From Candidatus Rifleibacteriota bacterium (GTDB lineage: Bacteria; Muiribacteriota; Ozemobacteria; Ozemobacterales; Ozemobacteraceae): a stretch of DNA of 64,000 bases. Positions 192-58,830 of the stretch are shown piece after piece. Numbering within the stretch: position 1 is the first letter of the stretch; each line of letters begins with the position of its first letter. Location of the stretch: the NCBI GenBank assembly GCA_012520995.1, contig JAAYNI010000044.1, forward strand, positions 1 to 64,000, written 5' to 3'. The position numbers were made by a program, and so were the translations under genes. The notes under the pieces were generated by a model. The model saw only the letters and a program-made list of their open reading frames with translations, did no database searches and had not been told where the DNA came from.

Positions 192-2600
192 TCATCTGCT
201 TTGCATAAGGCGATCATATTCGCGCTTAGCTTTGTTCATCTCGCTCGACATCTTCACTGCTTCTTCTGTTTTTCCAGAGTTCATCAGACTATTATATCTG
301 ACATAGAGCTGATAATATTTGTCATATGCTGAACCAATTTGCTCATCAAGAGTTGCAGCTTCGCCTTCTGGAGCATAGACTACAGGCGCCTGTTCAGATA
401 TTACAACCTGAGTATTAGGACCAGTTTCTACAGTTTCAATTTCAACAGGTTTTCTGGAAGGAGGCAACTGAACCTTGCCTGCATATCCGCCAGAGTTATC
501 AACGCCACCTCTATTAGCATCTGCAATTTGAGGCAATCGAGCTTCTTCTTTTTTGCCAAACAAACCAGCTATTTTGCCAGCAGCCCAGCTACCAAGATAT
601 CCGCCCACCATACCGCCGAGCATGGTTCCAACGTAAGGGATGGGAATTAATGAGCCGAGAGCCGCGCCAATCGTAGATCCCACAGCCTGCCCTGTAACAC
701 CTACCCAGTCGATTCTGCTGAAAGCTTCCTTAAGGGGGAGTTTCCAACCGTCTCTGTTAGCAAGAGAGTAAGCACCTACTGAAGAACCTATTACTGAACC
801 GAATGTGGGAGCCAGAGCACCAAGTACACCGCCAACCACAGGTATAGCGTTCAAGAAAGGAACCGCAAAGCTGCCCGCTGCGGCACCAAGAGTGGAGCCA
901 GCCACGCTGCCAGCAAATTCTGCTGTAAATATTGACTGGAGAGCTTTTCGAAGACTGGGATCTTCGCCTCTCATAACTTGCGCTACATAGTCAACGCCTA
1001 CAGTGATACCAGCGGTTACCAAGAGGTTCTTAGGACTGAAACCTGATTTCAGACTGTCCTTAACATTCTGAGTACCCTGTTTAGCCATAGCCTTTCCAGA
1101 CTGATAACCATTCTGGAATTTTGCTCCTATTCCAGGCTTAGCTTCTTTTGCGCCAGGAGCCTGAGCTGCCTGACCTGCTTGTCCTGCCTGACCAGCTTGT
1201 CCTGCCTGACCAGCTTGTCCAGCTTGTCCTGCTTGTCCTGCTTGACCAGCTTGTCCTGCCTGTCCAGCTTGTCCAGCTTGTCCTGCCTGTCCAGCTTGTC
1301 CAGCTTGTCCTGCCTGTCCTGCCTGTCCAGCTTGTCCAGCTTGTCCTGCCTGTGCAGCCTGTCCAGCGTTAGGAGAAGATATAATTCCCATCTCAGCAGC
1401 TCGAGCTTTGCTGATAAATCTGCCTGTTTGAGGATCTCTATAGCGAACTCCTCTGGGAGTATCAACTATATACTGATTATTGTCGGGAACTATACCGGAA
1501 ACTTTGCCTACAGCAGGAGCTTGAGCAGCTTGTCCTGCCTGTGAAGCTTGTCCAGCTTGAGAAGCCTGAGCAGGCTTGCCTACTTGAGCCGTCTGACCAG
1601 CTTGTGAAGCTTGACCTGCCTGAGGAGCTTGACCTTTGCTGAGCAATCCGAGTTCAGCTGCTTTGGTTTGAGAAATAAATCTTCCCGTTTGAGGATCTCT
1701 GTAGCGAACTCCGTTAGCAGTCTCAACCACATAAGGATTATTATTAGATGATGGAGCAGAAATACCTGCAGGTGCATTCGGCTGAGTCTGAGAAGTCTGA
1801 ACTACCTGAGCAGACTGAGAAGTTTGCTGAGGAGTCTTAACAACCTGACCAGAGGTTTGTCCTGTTCCAGCTACAGAAGAATTATTACTTGGAGAAGAAG
1901 AAGAGGAAACACCTGCCGGAGCATTAGGCTTGTTTTGATAAGAAGGCTGGTCATACTTGGAGTAACCAGTAGTAAGCTCTAATTCGGGCTTGCCAGCAGG
2001 AAGTTCTGCTACAGGCTGAGTATTAACAGGAGCTTGAGGCTTAGAGATTATACCTAATTCGGCAGCTCTTGTTTTGCTAATAAATCTGCCCGTTTGCGGA
2101 TCTCTGTAGCGAATTCCTCTAGGAGTATCAACTATATACTTATTGTTATCGGGAACTATAGCAGAAGGAGCTTTGGCTACTTGCTGAGCAGCTTGTCCAG
2201 CTTGCGAAGCCTTACCAGCCTGACCAGCTTGTCCTGCTTGAGCGGCTTGCGACGCTTGTCCTGCTTGAGCGGCTTGCGACGCTTGTCCAGCTTGTCCTGC
2301 TTGAGATCCAGTGCCCCCAAGACTGGGAGGCAATTGCACATCTGTGCCAAAAATAATGCTGTGATATGTCTGGATATCGACAGCAACAGGCTGTCCATTG
2401 ACATATCTGATGTTGTAGGAATTAGACCCCGTAGGCGTTTTAACGGTTACCCATTGCCCAGGAGTGACCTTGTATACCTGGTTACCTATCTTTACATTTA
2501 TCTTGTCACTGATAGCAGCAGACAATGGTTCTTGGAAAATTCCAAGTGTAAAGGTAAGAGCCAGGAGGATTGAGACCACTCTAAGTGTTTTCTTTCTCAT
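192..2600 (-). CDS. Secreted repeat protein: signal peptide, three YRDPQTGRFIS repeats, long (GQA)n tract, C-terminal glycine-zipper region
   Basis: ORF 192..2633; start set at MRKKTLRV (2600), preceded by AAGGAG. Signal-peptide-like N-terminus; repeats and GxxxG-rich hydrophobic C-terminal half read from the translation. Confidence 0.85.
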   Translation of the reverse strand: MRKKTLRVVSILLALTFTLGIFQEPLSAAISDKINVKIGNQVYKVTPGQWVTVKTPTGSNSYNIRYVNGQPVAVDIQTYHSIIFGTDVQLPPSLGGTGSQAGQAGQASQAAQAGQASQAAQAGQAGQAGKASQAGQAAQQVAKAPSAIVPDNNKYIVDTPRGIRYRDPQTGRFISKTRAAELGIISKPQAPVNTQPVAELPAGKPELELTTGYSKYDQPSYQNKPNAPAGVSSSSSPSNNSSVAGTGQTSGQVVKTPQQTSQSAQVVQTSQTQPNAPAGISAPSSNNNPYVVETANGVRYRDPQTGRFISQTKAAELGLLSKGQAPQAGQASQAGQTAQVGKPAQASQAGQASQAGQAAQAPAVGKVSGIVPDNNQYIVDTPRGVRYRDPQTGRFISKARAAEMGIISSPNAGQAAQAGQAGQAGQAGQAGQAGQAGQAGQAGQAGQAGQAGQAGQAGQAGQAGQAGQAGQAGQAGQAAQAPGAKEAKPGIGAKFQNGYQSGKAMAKQGTQNVKDSLKSGFSPKNLLVTAGITVGVDYVAQVMRGEDPSLRKALQSIFTAEFAGSVAGSTLGAAAGSFAVPFLNAIPVVGGVLGALAPTFGSVIGSSVGAYSLANRDGWKLPLKEAFSRIDWVGVTGQAVGSTIGAALGSLIPIPYVGTMLGGMVGGYLGSWAAGKIAGLFGKKEEARLPQIADANRGGVDNSGGYAGKVQLPPSRKPVEIETVETGPNTQVVISEQAPVVYAPEGEAATLDEQIGSAYDKYYQLYVRYNSLMNSGKTEEAVKMSSEMNKAKREYDRLMQSR
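1160..1369. repeat. 9-bp coding tandem repeat (CCTGCTTGT/CCAGCTTGT variants) encoding (GQA)n
   Basis: Direct reading of about 20 tandem 9-mers inside the 813-aa ORF. Confidence 0.95.
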
Positions 2601-2716
2601 AGTAAAACTCCTTGTTGTTCTTACAGAAAACATTGATATGTATATTTGTACACATCATTACTATAATTGTAATGACCAGAAAAAAAAACGCAAGGGGGCA
2701 AAGAAGATTTTTTTCT

Positions 2717-19513: not shown

Positions 19514-19649
19514 AGATTGTAAAAAAGGTGATTAGCGGCGAGTGGACTACAGACAGTGCTGTACAGCAAGGAAACAATGATATATTGTCTTGTGCAATTG
19601 GCACTGTATTTCACAAAACTTTCACTTGAAACACAGTGCCAGTTTGCTT

Positions 19650-20000
19650 CTATTTAAACATTGAACCGAAGCCAGCCGCCATTTTTCTGGCAAGCTCAGC
19701 AATAATTGCATCTTTCTTTCTCAAGAATGTAGGAACTGCGGACTTCGGCACTTTCGGCAAATCAGCTATCTTCGTTACTAACTCTCTCAATGAAAGCGAT
19801 GTATCGATCATAGCTACTGGAATATCCAAAAAACTCATTTTCTCAAACTTTACTGTAGCAAAGCGAAAATCAAGTTCGTCAAAATCAACATCAAATTGCT
19901 CTTTTATTGGTTTATCAATATTGAAGGGCTCGTCTTTCATGCTTTCAGACTCTATAGTCTGCAAGAAATCTTCCAATAAAGTATCTATTCGGGCAGTCAT
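19650..20000 (-). CDS. Hypothetical protein, 116 aa
   Basis: AAGGAGCC RBS directly upstream of the ATG; the opposite-strand ORF 19636..20013 lacks comparable support. Confidence 0.6.
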   Translation of the reverse strand: MTARIDTLLEDFLQTIESESMKDEPFNIDKPIKEQFDVDFDELDFRFATVKFEKMSFLDIPVAMIDTSLSLRELVTKIADLPKVPKSAVPTFLRKKDAIIAELARKMAAGFGSMFK

Positions 20001-22265: not shown

Positions 22266-23843
22266 ATGCCGGATTCCTTGTCTGCCCTGAAACAACAAAA
22301 TCTCAAATATGAGTATATACTCGGAGCTTTGAGTGATATCGGGGCTGAGCTCTGTAAAGAAACTGGTTTTGACCGCCAACTAAAATCAATGCTGCATCTT
22401 TTATTGGGTACTTTAGGCTCAATTAAAGGCGGCATTTTTTTCTTGGAGTCAAAAGATTCTAAGCATTATTTAAAACTTCAGTGCTCGTGGAAACTGAAAA
22501 AAGACACTGAACCTATTTTCATACCGCCAGAAGTCTATAAAAACCTTGAAGAGCTTCCTGACACCCAAACTTCTAAAATAACCGACACCGAACATTTCAA
22601 AGACTTGCCTCGTTATTTTGACGACGAACAGCTCGACAGCATAGCGATTCTCAAAGTCAGAACCAAAATTATTGGTGCCTTGGTAGTAGGAAAAAAACTA
22701 AAAGACACTGAGTTAACCAAAGAAGAAGTAGACTTTCTGCAGACCCTTTCCAGGAACGTAGCTGTTGCCATAAACAACTATTTTATGCTCTCTGACTTAC
22801 GTGAAACCAATGCCCGTTTAGATGACAAAATACGCGAAGTCAGCATACTTTACAAAGCCACTCAAATTATTTCCTCAGAACTTCAACTGCATGCCCTTTT
22901 GGATCTGGCCCTGACAACTATTGGCGAAATAGTAAAACTAACCAGCGGTTCTATGTGGCTCTATGACGACGAGACCCAATCCCTGAATCTTATAAGTAAA
23001 ATAACCAACGGAAGAGTAAGAACAAACCCGCGAGGCAAAATAGACAAAAAAACTTCCGTCTTTGTTAAAACCTTATTAGATCGCAAATCAACCCTTATTA
23101 AGTATCATGATGCTCCTTTGGAAGTCACTGAAAACGATCAAAAGTTTTTTGGTGACACCTTTGCATTAATTCCTATTATGAATAAAGGCACCTTCCTTGG
23201 GGCTATACACTTGGAGAATGAGGCGGATGAGCCATTCCAAGACAGAGATTTGCGTCTAATTCAAGTTTTCGCGCTTCAACTGGGTGCTGCCGTACAGAAT
23301 GCCAAACTTTATGAACAAGCAATAACTGACGGCATGACAAAACTTTACTTGCACAGATACTTCAAGCAGCGTCTAAAGGATGAAATAAAAAGAGCAAGCC
23401 GTTATGGACATGAGTTAGCTCTTATAATGATTGACATTGACTATTTCAAGAAGTTAAACGACACATACGGTCACCAAGCAGGAGACGAAGTCCTTAAACA
23501 GGTTGCCCAAATTCTTAAAACTGGCTTGCGCCTTCACGACCTGCCTGTCAGATATGGCGGCGAAGAGTTTGCTCTCCTGCTTCCTGAAACAGGGATAACT
23601 GGAGCAAAAAATGTTGCCCAACGAATCAGAAAAGCCATTGAAGCTAGTGTATTAGAATATGAAGGGAACATTATTCGACAAACAGCCAGTTTCGGCATCG
23701 CTGTTTTCCCTGCAGATGCCAAAGACGATGACTCTATCATAAGATCTGCTGATATCGCCTTATATTACTCCAAGGAAAGTGGCAGAAACCGCGTTAGCTG
23801 TTTCAAAGAGATTCCAGAAGAAAGCAAGAACGGCAAACAATAG
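22266..23843 (+). CDS. GAF-domain diguanylate cyclase (GGDEF family, motif GGEEF)
   Basis: RYGGEEFALLLPETG, DIDYFKKLNDTYGHQAGD; two GAF-like regions N-terminal. Confidence 0.92.
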   Translation: MPDSLSALKQQNLKYEYILGALSDIGAELCKETGFDRQLKSMLHLLLGTLGSIKGGIFFLESKDSKHYLKLQCSWKLKKDTEPIFIPPEVYKNLEELPDTQTSKITDTEHFKDLPRYFDDEQLDSIAILKVRTKIIGALVVGKKLKDTELTKEEVDFLQTLSRNVAVAINNYFMLSDLRETNARLDDKIREVSILYKATQIISSELQLHALLDLALTTIGEIVKLTSGSMWLYDDETQSLNLISKITNGRVRTNPRGKIDKKTSVFVKTLLDRKSTLIKYHDAPLEVTENDQKFFGDTFALIPIMNKGTFLGAIHLENEADEPFQDRDLRLIQVFALQLGAAVQNAKLYEQAITDGMTKLYLHRYFKQRLKDEIKRASRYGHELALIMIDIDYFKKLNDTYGHQAGDEVLKQVAQILKTGLRLHDLPVRYGGEEFALLLPETGITGAKNVAQRIRKAIEASVLEYEGNIIRQTASFGIAVFPADAKDDDSIIRSADIALYYSKESGRNRVSCFKEIPEESKNGKQ

Positions 23844-23922
23844 CTGGTGCTTTGTTTTCTCTAAAACTTTCCTGTCAGCCTTTCAAAATTCACAAGACAA
23901 TATCCGCTTATAAGATCACACC

Positions 23923-24102
23923 GTGATGAGTGGTGCGTGGCGGTTGGCGAGCTTAATTAAATTAGAAACTAAAAAGTATAAATTAGAAATAAATGTTGTA
24001 GTTTTTTCTGCAGTTTCTGTCCTATGTCTTTGTTTGGGGCTTGCTCCCCCCGCACCCTACACCCCACGCCCTACTCCCTGATTTTAAGCTGTGCTTAAAA
24101 TC
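23923..24102 (+). repeat. Mosaic heptad-core intergenic repeat, copy C
   Basis: GTGATGA-GTGGTGC-GTGGCGG-TTGGCGA then ATTAGAA-type and CCCT-type 7-bp series and the GATTTTAAGC..GCTTAAAATC palindrome. Confidence 0.85.
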
Positions 24103-24937
24103 AGCCTTCAGGGAATTTAACCTTCCAACGATTCAAGGACAAACCGCTTCTGGAACGTTCTATTATAAGAATACGTTCCAAAGCATCCACAGCAAAATCA
24201 CGAGGAGCCTCTTGTCTTGGCAGACGCAGTTTCCAAAACATTCTGCCGTTATTTCCTATAGATATAGCGAATCTTTTTGAATTTTCCTCAATGCCAGAAA
24301 TTAAAAGCTCATTATCAGGGCCCTCTGGACCAAGTTGCAAATTCACAGGCTGATAAGTAGAGGCAAAGTCAAAAACAGGCGACATCATATTGCCAAAACA
24401 ATCATAAATATCAGCCCGCCAGTTTCCCTTTTCTGTCAAAGCCATTGTCCAAAAGAATCCGTCTTGAACAGGCAAGAGAAATGGCATATCTTTTATTTCA
24501 ACAACCTCTGCCGAACTCTTTGGCAAATAGTAAGCATCTCCTGAACCGTATAGCATAAGTCCTGCTGAGCAAGCCTCTATACGGCTAGCATTGAAAGAAA
24601 GAGAAGCCCACTCGCTGAAGATATGTCCGCCCAAAGAACCTGCATCATTCAGGTATATAAGCTCCCCGTTATAAACATCAAAATCAACTATGGAACCGGA
24701 TACTTTTACAGAACCTTCCTTCATGCTTTGATCAGCTGTATTTAAAATTATATAGTTGCCTGATTCCGAGAGTATATACACATGGTTATTTTCATATCGA
24801 AAGCCAAGCAAACCTTGGGAAATCATTTTCTGAGGAATCTCAAGCAGAACTTCTCTGGTAATAGATTGAGCAGTCAGTTCAAATGAAAAGAGAGAAAGAA
24901 AAGTTATCAAGAAAAAAACATGTATTCGTTTAATCAT
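24101..24937 (-). CDS. Secreted hypothetical protein, beta-propeller-like
   Basis: Signal peptide; repeated beta-rich segments; tandem with an NHL-like gene. Confidence 0.65.
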   Translation of the reverse strand: MIKRIHVFFLITFLSLFSFELTAQSITREVLLEIPQKMISQGLLGFRYENNHVYILSESGNYIILNTADQSMKEGSVKVSGSIVDFDVYNGELIYLNDAGSLGGHIFSEWASLSFNASRIEACSAGLMLYGSGDAYYLPKSSAEVVEIKDMPFLLPVQDGFFWTMALTEKGNWRADIYDCFGNMMSPVFDFASTYQPVNLQLGPEGPDNELLISGIEENSKRFAISIGNNGRMFWKLRLPRQEAPRDFAVDALERILIIERSRSGLSLNRWKVKFPEG

Positions 24938-33662: not shown

Positions 33663-33732
33663 GTGACGAGTGGTGAGTGGCGGGCGGCGGGTGGCGGGCA
33701 AGAACCAACATCCATAACAGCCGATCTAGCCT
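33663..33732 (+). repeat. Mosaic heptad-core intergenic repeat, copy D
   Basis: GTGACGA-GTGGTGA-GTGGCGG-GCGGCGG-GTGGCGG then GCAAGAACCAACATCCATAACAGCCGATCT. Confidence 0.88.
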
Positions 33733-33843
33733 CTGATTAAGAACTGATACTTAAAAAACAGTGGCAAGGGATTAGTGGATAGTAGCAGAGAGAGCAACGA
33801 ACAGCCAGAAATGAGTGGCAAGTAATGCATGGAAACTAGAGCT

Positions 33844-46924: not shown

Positions 46925-47078
46925 TCGCCACCCGCCACTCATCACTGCGGATAGATCTCGGCTGTTATAGATGTTGGTTCTTACCCGCCACCCGTCACTC
47001 ACCACGCGAAACTGATTTTTAAGCTAGCTTAAAAATCCCATCTGTGCCCATACGTGGATAGAAAAAATTGTACCCGAT
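46925..47078. repeat. Mosaic heptad-core intergenic repeat, copy E (two heptad cores)
   Basis: TCGCCAC-CCGCCAC-TCATCAC and CCGCCAC-CCGTCAC-TCACCAC; flank shared with copy D; tail GATTTTTAAGCTAGCTTAAAAATC...GTGGATAG. Confidence 0.87.
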
Positions 47079-47111
47079 AATAAACTTTTAGAGAAAAAAA
47101 AGCACTAGAAG

Positions 47112-49580
47112 TTACCATGTATCTTGAAACATAATCTGCGGAGGAGCTTGTTCAGTTTGTTGTTTCGGAGAGCCTGTTTCCACTTTTATTCTCGGCAGCA
47201 TCTGGCTGTCTTGAGTAAAGTTGTTTTTTGGAGAAACTGCAGGAAGCCCCTGCTCTTCGATCGGAGTAAATTGAACAGGATTGAATTGTCGCGGCTGGGT
47301 ATTCAAGACCTCTCCGACATTTCTCCCTGAAACAGAGGTCTTGGAGCTGTCATAAGTAGCACTGAAGAAATCATAAGGCACAGCTGCAGATGTATCTGCG
47401 ATTTCCTCTTCTTCCAGAACTTCCAAAGCAGCAGCCGCACGCTGATTCTTAGCTTCATATGCTGCATGCCTGCAAACCACGACAGGCTGAGAATCAACAG
47501 GAAACATCTGAGTAACTTTGAAAGACCACGGACAGGCAGATGAAGATAAATGCCCCGACAAAGAGCAGATATTACATCTCACCGCATTATTCGGAACAGG
47601 GAAATCTGTTTTAGGATAGTGCTCTAATGCCTTGCTCATAAACTCTTTCCAAGGCGGGCCCGCAACATTTCCGCCAGCTTTGCCTTTACCAAGCGTCTTA
47701 GGCACGTCAAAGCCGAATTCCACAATAGTCACAAGTTCTGGACTTATACCATTAAACCAAGCTTCTTTGTAATCATTTGTTGTTCCTGTTTTACCGCCCA
47801 CCACCCGATCTTTTATTTTGACTCGCCAGCCAGTACCGCGCTCAACAGCATTTCTTAGCATATCGCACATCATACCTGCTGTAACAGCAGACATAACTTC
47901 CTTGGCTTTGGGTAAATCTTCACTCAAAAGGTTGTTTTCACGGTCATATACTCTCAAAATAGAAACCGGCTTGCAGTAAATGCCAGAGTTAACAAAAACT
48001 CCATAGGCACTAGCCAACTCTAACAGGGTACATTGTCCAGATCCAAGAGCTAAGGAAAGATTCGGATCCATAGGGGAGTTTATGCCCAATTTTTTAATAA
48101 ACCGAACAAGCTTTGCAGGAGTAAGAGCATCAATAAGTTTAACAGCAGGAACGTTGTAACTTTTCATCAAAGCTTGCAAAAGAGTTATATAGCCATGAAA
48201 CTTGAGGTCTGAGTTTTGCGGAGACCAAACCTGCAATGTCCAAGGGTTTGTATAGGTTATAGGCTCATCCAAAATAACGTCTCCCGGCAAATAGCCCTCT
48301 TCTAAGGCAGCCGCAAAAACGAAAGGTTTAAACCCTGAACCTGTCTGTATCAGTGCCTGTGTAGTTCTATTAAACTGTGACTGCTCGAATGAACGGCCGC
48401 CATACATAGCCTTTATATGACCATTTTTCGGATCTAAGCAAATAAGAGCGCCATTCATGTCAGGAAACTCTTCCGCAGGATATTCTTTAAATATTGCGGC
48501 ATTATTCATAGCATCTTCAGCATATTTCTGAAAATCCAAGTCAATGGTTGTATATATTTTAAGACCGCCGTTATAAAGCATATTTGCTCCATACTTTTCC
48601 AAAAGCTGGTCTCTGATATAAGCAGCAAAATAGGGAGCAATCTGCTCTTCTTTTTCCATAGGCTTCAAAGCAGGCTCTTGAGCTTTAGCCTCCTCGTATT
48701 GGCTAGGAGTTATAAAACCCAGAGAAGCCATTTTAGAAAGCACCAATTCTCTGCGCCTAGCATTGTTTTCGGGATATTTATAAGGAGAGTAGTAAACCGG
48801 GCTCTTAGGTATAGAGCTAAGCATAGCACATTCAGATAAAGTCAGTTCTGATGGATCTGTCTTCCCAAAATAAAGCTCTGCTGCAGCGGCAAGACCGTAA
48901 GCTCCATGACCAAAGTAAATTTCGTTTAAATAAAGTGTCAATATTTCATCTTTGGAATATTTTCGCTCTATTTGAAAAGCCATCATAGCTTCAATTGCTT
49001 TGCGCTTATAACTTTTCTCGTTTGTGAGAAAAACGTTTTTGATAAGTTGCTGAGTCAAAGTCGAGGCACCTTGGACAATACGGCCTGCTTTCACATTAGC
49101 AAGCATGGCTCTGGCAATACCTATGACATCTATTCCATAATGTTCATAAAATCTTTCATCCTCTATGGCAACAACCGAATCTTTCATAATTTTCGGAATT
49201 TCTGTAGAGGAAAGTATTCTGGTACGGTTCTCAGTTGCATGCAGCTTCATAAAAAGCCTGCCCTTTGAGTCGAAAACCTGAGATGTTAAGTTAGGACGAT
49301 AAACAGCATCCGCAATGATAGGTATTCGTTCTGAAAAGGCTTTGACTACCCCAATGAATATCCCTACCAAAACTACCGTAGCAATAAAAGAAAAAATTAA
49401 AGTTACTTTGAAGAAGAACCAAAGCCATCCTATGATCTTCTGAGTCAAAGTTGAAGAATTATCTTCCTCATAGTGCTCTTCTTGCTCTGAGTGAGAAAGC
49501 TGGCTATTAACTGAGAGTTGTTTTGCTTCTATTATTAAAGTTTCTTTGCCGATTTCTCGCGGCTCATTTGGTGTATTCAT
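47112..49580 (-). CDS. Penicillin-binding protein 1A (transglycosylase/transpeptidase)
   Basis: EDERFYEHYGID, GASTLTQQLIKN, GSGFKPFVFAAAL, SYNVPAVK, GGKTGTTNDYKEAWF. Confidence 0.96.
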   Translation of the reverse strand: MNTPNEPREIGKETLIIEAKQLSVNSQLSHSEQEEHYEEDNSSTLTQKIIGWLWFFFKVTLIFSFIATVVLVGIFIGVVKAFSERIPIIADAVYRPNLTSQVFDSKGRLFMKLHATENRTRILSSTEIPKIMKDSVVAIEDERFYEHYGIDVIGIARAMLANVKAGRIVQGASTLTQQLIKNVFLTNEKSYKRKAIEAMMAFQIERKYSKDEILTLYLNEIYFGHGAYGLAAAAELYFGKTDPSELTLSECAMLSSIPKSPVYYSPYKYPENNARRRELVLSKMASLGFITPSQYEEAKAQEPALKPMEKEEQIAPYFAAYIRDQLLEKYGANMLYNGGLKIYTTIDLDFQKYAEDAMNNAAIFKEYPAEEFPDMNGALICLDPKNGHIKAMYGGRSFEQSQFNRTTQALIQTGSGFKPFVFAAALEEGYLPGDVILDEPITYTNPWTLQVWSPQNSDLKFHGYITLLQALMKSYNVPAVKLIDALTPAKLVRFIKKLGINSPMDPNLSLALGSGQCTLLELASAYGVFVNSGIYCKPVSILRVYDRENNLLSEDLPKAKEVMSAVTAGMMCDMLRNAVERGTGWRVKIKDRVVGGKTGTTNDYKEAWFNGISPELVTIVEFGFDVPKTLGKGKAGGNVAGPPWKEFMSKALEHYPKTDFPVPNNAVRCNICSLSGHLSSSACPWSFKVTQMFPVDSQPVVVCRHAAYEAKNQRAAAALEVLEEEEIADTSAAVPYDFFSATYDSSKTSVSGRNVGEVLNTQPRQFNPVQFTPIEEQGLPAVSPKNNFTQDSQMLPRIKVETGSPKQQTEQAPPQIMFQDTW

Positions 49581-52286: not shown

Positions 52287-52323
52287 TTCTATCCAAAAGT
52301 TTCAGCTGTTTATCAGCTGCTTA

Positions 52324-52387
52324 GAGCAATTATCAATTTCAGCAATTGAGCCTAAAACAATCGACTCGCCACTCACCACTCGTCACG
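52324..52387. repeat. Mosaic heptad-core intergenic repeat, copy F
   Basis: TCGCCAC-TCACCAC-TCGTCAC; flank AGCAATTATCA..TTCAGCAATTGAG shared with copy B. Confidence 0.85.
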
Positions 52388-52471
52388 GTGCTATGTATAC
52401 TTTTTAGCAGCTATTGTTTTGTGAATTTTGAATAGCTCTTAAGGTTTTAGCTGCAACACAGTATCAGCGAA

Positions 52472-53632
52472 TTACTCCATGTAGAACTCTTTCAGTTTCT
52501 TCGATCTGCTCGGATGTCTGAGCTTTCTAAGAGCTTTAGCTTCAATCTGTCTTATTCGTTCTCTTGTGACACCGAACTTTTGTCCGACTTCCTCAAGAGT
52601 CCGCTGCCAACCGTCCTCAAGACCAAATCTGTATTTAATAACCCTTGATTCGCGTTCAGTAAGAGTTGCCAATACTTTATTAATTTGTTCTTTTAGAATC
52701 AAGTTGAAAGCAGTTTCTGCTGGAGGCAGAGCTGTTTTATCTTCAATAAAATCGCCAAGACGAGAATCCTCTTCTCCGTTAATCGGTGTTTCCAGAGAAA
52801 TGGGGTCCATAGCGGTTTTCATGATATTCTTAACTTTATCAATCGGAAGAGCTACTTCCTCAGCCAACTCTTCAACGGAAGGATCTCGTCCCAGTTTCTG
52901 AACCAGTTTTCTGGAAGCCTTTCTCAGCTTATTGATAGTTTCAACCATATGAACGGGAATACGTATTGTTCTAGCCTGATCAGCAATTGCTCTGGTAATG
53001 GCTTGACGTATCCACCAAATAGCATAAGTCGAAAACTTGTAGCCTTTTCTGTATTTGAATTTTTCAACGGCTCTTATCAGACCTTGATTGCCTTCTTGAA
53101 TAAGATCGAGGAAAAGCAATCCGCGCTTAGTATACTTTTTAGCTACGGAAACCACCAAACGCAAGTTAGCTTCTATAAGCTTCCTTTGTGCATCCTGATC
53201 GCCATGTTCTATTCTCTTTGCAAGAGTAACTTCTTCCTGCATAGTCAAAAGCCGAATTTTACCAATTTCTCGCAAATAAACTCTGACTGAGTCATCAATA
53301 TCATCAAACTCTGCAGGTTTCTTTTCTTCTTTTACTTTCTTTTTCGAGCCGGCTACAGGAATAGTTTTTTCAGCCGAGTCGGTATCATCACCGTCAACCA
53401 GCTCAACTTCTTTTTCCATCAGCTCATTTATAAGCTGTTCGAAAATTTCAACAGGAAGACCGTCCGGCAAAGCTTTATTGATAGATTGATAAGACAAATA
53501 GCCTTGCTCAGTGCCTGTCTGTATCAAATCAGCTTTGATCTCATCCAGCGATCGCTGCTGTCTTTTCGCAGTGGCGGCAATAACAGCTCCTGGCGTTACC
53601 AACGCCTCTTCTTGCGCCTTCTGTGTATTCAT
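52472..53632 (-). CDS. rpoD: RNA polymerase primary sigma factor
   Basis: [63 protein letters not shown]; next to dnaG. Confidence 0.96.
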
Positions 53633-57569: not shown

Positions 57570-57615
57570 GTGACGAGTGATGAGTGGCGAGTCTGTGTTA
57601 ATCTGCGGATGAAAA
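57570..57615 (+). repeat. Mosaic heptad-core intergenic repeat, copy H
   Basis: GTGACGA-GTGATGA-GTGGCGA followed by TCTGTGTTAATCTGCGGAT tail. Confidence 0.82.
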
Positions 57616-57672
57616 ATATTTCGTCCTTTCCGTGTATTCTGCGTGTTCTGTGGTTTAAAAAAGTTTTTTAAG

Positions 57673-58830
57673 TTATTTTACGCAGCGGAAACCAACGGTT
57701 GTGCTCTTATAGAATGGACTGCGTCTTATATCTCTGGCAGATGAGCGACAGCCTCTGGACGTATCATCCCACGAGCCGCCTTTTATTATAGGCATACCAT
57801 ATTTGCCGCCGAAAAGCTTAGCATTAGAAGCTCTTTCTTCGTAAGCAGTAGCTGTCCATTCAGCTACGTTGCCCGCCAAATCCAAAACGCCAAACGGAGA
57901 AGCTCCCTCAGGATATTTGCCCACTGCCGTTGGAGCGTTACCTATATGACATTTAGCTTTGTCAAAAGTATTTCCCCATGGGTATTCACGCAAATCGTTT
58001 CCTCTGGCTGCAATTTCCCATTCATTTTCAGTGGGAAGCCTCTTGCCAGCCCAGCTGGCATAAGCATAGGCATCATACCAGTCTACTAAAACAACGGGAT
58101 GATCTTCTTTCCCTCTAGGAGGTATGCCGTTATTCCAGCTGAATCGCTGAGCCCAAGCATATGTATGTGTGGGCGTGTGATCTTTGTTTTCCGGCTCATC
58201 TGGATGGCACCACTTGTGCCCATGCTCCTTTATATCTTTTAAAAAGCGTTCATACTGAGCCATAGTGACTTCACATTTGTCTATATAAAAACCTTCTGTG
58301 TAAACAGTTCTAGTCGGTCTTTCATCATGATTTGCACGATTGCTTCCTAAAACATAGTTACCGGCAGGAATCTTTTGCATGTCCATGTCACGTTGAGAAG
58401 AAATTGAAGCTACGAGAACCTTGCGTCTCTCCTCGGGACTTTTTTCAGGCAAGTCTATGTTAAACTTCAAAACAGAGTCACCTGCATTTAAAAAAGTCAC
58501 ATTGCAATTTCTTTTTCCATCTGCTCCAATTGAAACATGCAAAGGTTCGTCTTTTACAAGGTTTACAATACGCACAGGCAGCTGTTCGCCTTCAACATAG
58601 AGTTTATAGTCCAAAGGCATCTCAGTGAAATCTGCTATTATATCTTTTTCGAGTACCCTATCTGTGAATTCCAGCTTTTCACCATCTGCAGGACAGAAGT
58701 TAACTTCATCTTTGTACAGTTTATTGCAAACAGGACATTCTTTTGCCGCCATAATAGGCAATGCAAAAGAAAAAACAAAGAGTAATGCAAATAAAATTCG
58801 TATTTCAGAGCTCTTATCCATAAGCATCAA
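57673..58830 (-). CDS. SUMF1/FGE-fold protein with N-terminal zinc-ribbon-like CxxC motif
   Basis: CPVCNKLYKDEVNFCPADG; GNVAEWTATAYE...IKGGSWDDTSRGCRSSARDIRRSPFYKSTTVGFRCVK. Confidence 0.87.
   Translation of the reverse strand: MMLMDKSSEIRILFALLFVFSFALPIMAAKECPVCNKLYKDEVNFCPADGEKLEFTDRVLEKDIIADFTEMPLDYKLYVEGEQLPVRIVNLVKDEPLHVSIGADGKRNCNVTFLNAGDSVLKFNIDLPEKSPEERRKVLVASISSQRDMDMQKIPAGNYVLGSNRANHDERPTRTVYTEGFYIDKCEVTMAQYERFLKDIKEHGHKWCHPDEPENKDHTPTHTYAWAQRFSWNNGIPPRGKEDHPVVLVDWYDAYAYASWAGKRLPTENEWEIAARGNDLREYPWGNTFDKAKCHIGNAPTAVGKYPEGASPFGVLDLAGNVAEWTATAYEERASNAKLFGGKYGMPIIKGGSWDDTSRGCRSSARDIRRSPFYKSTTVGFRCVK

Follow-up and report, generated by a model that had tools for sequence, protein, structure and literature searches.

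Composite, MITE-like intergenic elements with a heptanucleotide slot in a Candidatus Rifleibacteriota genome

Downstream of a GAF-GGDEF gene of a Candidatus Rifleibacteriota bacterium lies a G-rich array of 7-bp units, followed by an AT-rich and a pyrimidine-rich heptad series and by a palindrome. The question that this locus raises is whether the array is a repeat in its own right or a part of something larger. An earlier note on the window, by which we mean the whole 64,000-nucleotide stretch of DNA that was analysed, had described a family of mosaic intergenic repeats built around a core with a 7-bp period. The mosaic character is borne out, because profile searches of 411 intergenic stretches show 112 different module orders in the 119 regions that contain at least three modules. 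The heptad, on the other hand, does not define the family. What does define it are terminal inverted repeats on CTAG and a fairly fixed order of slots, of which the heptad array is one. The stretch first flagged is the interior of one copy of this larger composite unit; the copy is truncated, and the stretch makes up two thirds of it, on the right-hand side.

The heptad array and its copies in the window

The four G-rich units (GTGATGA, GTGGTGC, GTGGCGG and TTGGCGA), the AT-rich series behind them and the pyrimidine series are present as first described (Table 1). So is the palindrome, the extent of which had been noted slightly short, as its 12-nt arms cover 24078–24089 and 24093–24104. All seven further heptad positions listed in the earlier note were matched by a scan of the window, in which the core occurs 11 times at up to three mismatches, compared with 0.01 expected from shuffles. 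The 2.84-Mb genome contains 156 matches at up to two mismatches, against one in a reversed-pattern control. The statistics given here for the sample come from 61 stretches (0.92 Mb, including the window) that were picked around core hits and in which genes were called with a simple purpose-made gene caller, and the rates apply to this sample. The core had been said to be always intergenic, which is nearly the case: two of its 108 copies in the sample fall in called genes, and the others are intergenic or lie at stretch ends. The autocorrelation of the intergenic DNA has a peak at lag 7 (z = 19.9) and harmonics at lag 14 (z = 7.3) and lag 21 (z = 4.4), and lags 2 and 3 are high too. The core is thus neither at chance frequency nor mostly coding, but strongly enriched and almost wholly intergenic.

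Table 1. Parts of the type copy (first six lines) and other copies of the family in the window.
Feature	Position	Strand	Remarks
5′ terminal inverted repeat CTGGTGCTTTGTTTTCTCTAAAACTTTCCT	23844..23873	+	position-weight score 41; reversed sequence without hits
Subterminal block La	23873..23919	+	nhmmer profile; 21–22 La copies in sample
G-rich heptad array, 4 units (flagged core)	23923..23950	+	
AT-rich heptad series ATTAGAA/ACTAAAA	23951..23992	+	module common to other copies
Pyrimidine heptad series, module Q	24048..24079	-	minus strand: GGG-N3-4-GGG repeats
Palindrome CTGATTTTAAGC-TGT-GCTTAAAATCAG, module X	24078..24104	.	
Composite copy: Q, H (2879–2899), R, C2, C2	2716..2972	-	without recognised inverted repeats
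Fragment: inverted repeat (19610–19642), La remnant	19582..19642	-	7 nt from stop of gene 19650–20000
Composite copy: heptads (5 units), N, partial A	33663..33746	+	between convergent genes
Composite copy: heptads, N, heptads, palindrome, C, 3′ end	46925..47108	-	inverted repeat 47076–47108, its end 3 nt from stop of gene 47112–49580
Composite copy: inverted repeat (52435–52467), La, heptads (52366–52386), R	52302..52467	-	between convergent genes; 4 nt from stop of gene 52472–53632
Composite copy: heptads, ATTAGAA series, Q′, palindrome, CACAGATTA-type module C2	55513..55692	+	
Composite copy: heptads (57570–57590), C, P	57570..57666	+	between convergent genes

The type copy begins directly after the TAG stop (23841–23843) of the GAF-GGDEF gene (22266–23843, Pfam), and its palindrome includes the TGA stop (24101–24103) of the convergent gene at 24101–24937. 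La, the heptads, the AT-rich and C-rich series and the palindrome take up the whole gap, and the copy has no 3′ end. Module Q is a possible G-quadruplex.

Two genes of the window may be mentioned here. The one at 57673–58830 (minus strand), the 3′ end of which faces a heptad copy, encodes a protein with an FGE-sulfatase (SUMF1-like) domain. The gene at 192–2633 (minus strand) contains long imperfect 9/27-bp tandem repeats, GCTTGTCCA, at 1177–2303, which encode a collagen-like low-complexity stretch.

A fairly fixed order of slots with a shuffled interior

When the flanks of all core copies were listed, many cores proved to have common upstream blocks beginning with CTAGTGCTGTGTTGCAGCTAAAACTT, and full copies close with this sequence in inverted orientation. 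The recurrent scheme runs from the terminal inverted repeat CTAGTGCTKTGTTGCARCTAAAACTT through one of at least four alternative subterminal blocks of 50–60 bp (La, Lb, Le or Lf) to the heptad array and module R, then through the optional modules K, A, D, P, AT, V and N, some of which are hairpins, to the C-rich heptads with the palindrome, a CACAGA-type module and the matching 3′ inverted repeat, which terminates in CTAG. The heptad slot takes arrays of three kinds, namely GTGRYGA, GGGNGTA or GTGGATA. Elements are roughly 250–570 bp in size; facing inverted-repeat pairs, a few of which look spurious, delimit units of 112–572 bp, many of them of 250–315 bp. A position-weight model finds 116–121 ends in the 0.92-Mb sample and none in the reversed sequence, from which we estimate by scaling about 220 ends in the 2.84-Mb genome; a plain end pattern (up to three mismatches) occurs 57 times genome-wide and not at all in the control. 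Only a minority of ends pair as complete elements, and one end is missing from many copies, among them the type copy. Repeats are the source of at least a quarter of the intergenic DNA in the sample.

Inspection of a full-length 300-bp element revealed no gene. Terminal inverted repeats at both ends, a short length (about 100–600 bp), no coding capacity and a high, dispersed copy number are the features of a MITE, and these elements are probably a high-copy, non-autonomous, MITE-like family, the mobility of which we infer. At positions 11–18 of the inverted repeat, five discrete boxes (TTGCARC, TTTTGTC, TTTTCTC, TTTTCAC and AACATC) recur among about 120 ends; most of these variants occur at both ends, and two of them replace each other in copies that are near-identical elsewhere.

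A group of 12 Le-type copies shows almost no differences in the part that extends from the inverted repeat to the end of the heptads. The 5′ flank can be read in 11 of the 12, and all 11 flanks are different and unrelated, which argues for recent spread. Many near-identical copies sit at contig ends, as expected where long identical repeats break the assembly. Even within this young group the parts vary: L054 and L085 have TTTTGTC in place of TTGCAAC in the inverted repeat, L068 has an Lf block, and the number of heptads is three or four. One young copy, L084, lacks module A, the borders of which bear the direct repeat CATCTGT, and this suggests a deletion between short repeats.

Across the family the same right-hand A module comes after each of La, Lb, Le and Lf, and the type of inverted-repeat box and the inner module assort loosely and independently. 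The chimerism of the copies is observed as such, and it is the mechanism of the shuffling that we infer. As every copy has a G-rich 7-bp array at the same place, it is possible, if somewhat doubtful, that the heptad slot is a dedicated recombination hinge at which left and right halves and inverted-repeat boxes are exchanged, giving a self-diversifying family that keeps only its ends and the order of its slots.

CTAG ends, stop codons and the search for a mobiliser

An exact CTAG is found at 81 of the 121 ends in the sample. It stands at both ends of the element, one CTAG can be common to neighbouring elements, and it can be read as a CTAG target, as a TA target or as part of the element. At 36 ends the TAG of CTAG (TAA in two cases) is the stop codon of the adjoining gene. 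Random landing in gene ends would make the other two reading phases equally common, but ends at gene stops fall into the three phases as 36:1:0 (p about 2e-16). An element end is also present on 30 of 57 stops of the form C-TAG compared with four of 67 other TAG stops (p = 3.5e-9), an enrichment that is partly circular because the element itself brings the CTAG, and the phase bias is the cleaner argument. In the sample, 39 of the 72 gaps between convergent genes hold elements, as do 13 of the 80 between divergent and 63 of the 562 between co-directional genes. The pattern is most simply read as the result of a CTAG target, with subsequent loss of those insertions that harm genes or promoters; a preference of the target for stop codons as such is possible, but the explanation does not require it.

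The same position, at stop codons and in convergent gaps, would suit a functional RNA or 3′-UTR element, such as a terminator or a signal for RNA stability or processing, that is selected at gene ends. Compared with shuffled sequences, both the type copy and a full-length copy have moderately better folds (z about -2.4 to -2.5), as is expected because of their inverted repeats, and hairpins and inverted repeats are in any case expected of MITEs. The search for RNA covariation that the earlier note had proposed gave a divided answer: the hairpin of module A shows five compensated pairs in 16 sequences, a modest support since the summed covariation term is unfavourable, whereas module R has neither a common structure nor covariation. 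Given further that the type copy has no predicted intrinsic terminator, that Rfam gave only chance-level matches and none over the gathering threshold, and that the order of modules varies almost freely, we regard a selected RNA element as unlikely.

High-copy palindromes (GATTTTTAAGCTAGCTTAAAAATC) in intergenic DNA also bring to mind a REP/REPIN system in which palindrome X would be the REP and a RAYT (Y1) transposase the mobiliser. The genome, however, has no Y1_Tnp gene, the palindrome is an optional module, and it is long inverted repeats on CTAG that form the conserved boundaries, so that such a system is highly improbable here.

For the MITE-like family that we favour, we propose that a transposase acting in trans would insert the element into CTAG and duplicate either CTAG or only TA. 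Insertions in coding DNA would be removed by selection, while one at a C-TAG stop codon would be tolerated because the stop is kept. The number of heptad units would then change via slippage, the interior would be reshuffled by recombination at short common sequences, and the element would be mainly selfish DNA rather than a dedicated regulator.

No autonomous partner with a matching inverted repeat was found among the DDE_3, DDE_Tnp_1, rve and Y1 families in the genome, which is a 101-contig draft of about 96% completeness, so the mobiliser gene may be unassembled. An IS630/mariner origin, suggested by the TA/CTAG target, finds no DDE_3 gene in the genome, and for an IS3/IS481-type origin there is a single rve gene with no inverted repeat nearby. 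Facing inverted repeats 0.7–5 kb apart, between which an autonomous element might lie, enclose only ordinary genes. Two exact-pattern scans of viral contigs, which address carriage by phages, gave no match, and a resemblance of GCCTAACAGCCA to attC is confined to one flank type.

An IS5-type origin was likewise rejected: the one DDE_Tnp_1 gene has ends of the form YTAG-GGYCTGTTGAAC, its inverted repeats differ, and the repeat of the family does not flank it. These ends and the family have CTGTTG and the TAG context in common, which is suggestive, and YTAG-GGYCTGTTG is close enough to the 3′ end of the family, CTAGTAGACTGTTG, to serve as a lead. The IS5-type IS (G000 C93, L236, about 1860–2730; DDE_Tnp_1) is present in a single copy with ends YTAG-GGYCTGTTGAACATT and adjoins degenerate family modules. 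It is possibly a relative of the missing mobiliser.

Distribution and likeness to known elements

Pattern scans, along the lines of the scan of genome and relatives that the earlier note had proposed, found ends and core to be abundant in this genome, whereas the end pattern (up to three mismatches) is absent from 39 other genomes of the phylum. Among the 40 genomes whole elements apparently occur only in this one, with one weak partial match in another (G007, E = 0.005). Single ingredients reach further, as CACAGATTA-type sequences are also found in genomes g4 and g7 and GGGAGTA heptads in g10, g11 and g17. A member of another genus of the same family (G014; L096 and L105) has mosaic intergenic repeats of its own, of CAAGCTTGGC type and GTCTCACAG type, which include the heptads CACTCAC and TTGTAAC and have no CTAG inverted repeat.

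The exact core occurs in at least 80 contigs from many phyla, and the three contigs that were read hold plain tandem arrays: L130, L135 and L162, from Desulfuromonadales, Flavobacteriales and Luteolibacter genomes, have perfect GTGGCGA arrays near contig ends. Cyanobacterial STRRs are heptanucleotide repeats, and the present arrays could be plain tandem repeats of that type, arisen by intergenic slippage, with secondary similarities between their flanks. Besides such perfect arrays in unrelated bacteria, this origin would fit the bare, short arrays that other genera of the same family have without any such inverted repeat, and the three or four units of otherwise near-identical copies. Most arrays, however, do not stand free as an STRR would, and adjoin element modules in a set order. 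Slippage leaves unexplained the inverted repeats on CTAG, the order of slots, the coincidence with stop codons and the near-identical non-repeat blocks at unrelated sites, and we find it quite unlikely as an account of the family. The heptad alone is a common simple repeat, and the element is the lineage-specific part.

We point out that free-floating heptad repeats, which occur in many phyla and have lacked a good explanation, are hereby tied in at least one lineage to a mobile-looking element, which offers a testable route of spread. Of interest to the specialist are the heptad slot, the extent of the shuffling and the landing at stop codons. The family is a clear case of a transposon-like element whose interior withstands almost unlimited reshuffling, and of the stop codon as a harmless landing place for an insertion.

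Heptanucleotide repeats have been described elsewhere, such as TAACTGA in Beggiatoaceae (PMC4679880) and GGGNATC in Xanthomonas and Nostoc (PMC4692102). They and the present family have in common short intergenic 7-bp arrays, some of them G-rich with four G runs like module Q, but the known repeats are described as free-standing, whereas in the present genome they form part of an element that looks mobile. Correia elements, RUP, Nezha and other bacterial MITEs are fairly uniform in sequence, and a partner IS has been proposed for RUP and Nezha, unlike here, where none turned up among the four transposase families searched. All of these are short, non-autonomous elements with inverted repeats, intergenic and in high copy (PMC3049150).

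The earlier note had taken the cyanobacterial STRRs as a precedent, which fits the heptad array by itself, and had thought the combination undescribed, which holds for the family but not for its type of architecture, since BOX (PMC3049150) and BrickBuilt (PMC4596501) are closer. BOX elements of Streptococcus pneumoniae and S. suis are composite intergenic MITE-like repeats with end modules and a variable number of internal modules, 67–637 bp in size in the pneumococcus and in S. suis with alternative end pairs around a shared boxB, and their mobilisation by a host IS has been inferred from similar inverted repeats (PMC3049150). The likeness, in ends and variable internal repeats, is one of architecture only. 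The present family belongs to an unrelated taxon and differs in its 7-bp array of three interchangeable kinds, its many more optional modules and its CTAG target, which often coincides with stop codons. The BrickBuilt MITE of Porphyromonas gingivalis has inverted ends and a tandem repeat flanked by a leader and a tail, and is always intergenic and confined to one species, with a 23-bp unit, 19 copies and a single architecture (PMC4596501). Here too the likeness, a tandem repeat within inverted ends, is architectural, and we claim membership of neither group for our family, in which the units are of 7 bp, the ends number an estimated 220 and the interior is shuffled. The copies make up a new family of composite MITE-like elements with presumed mobility, of a kind already known, which by its architecture can be set beside BOX and BrickBuilt.
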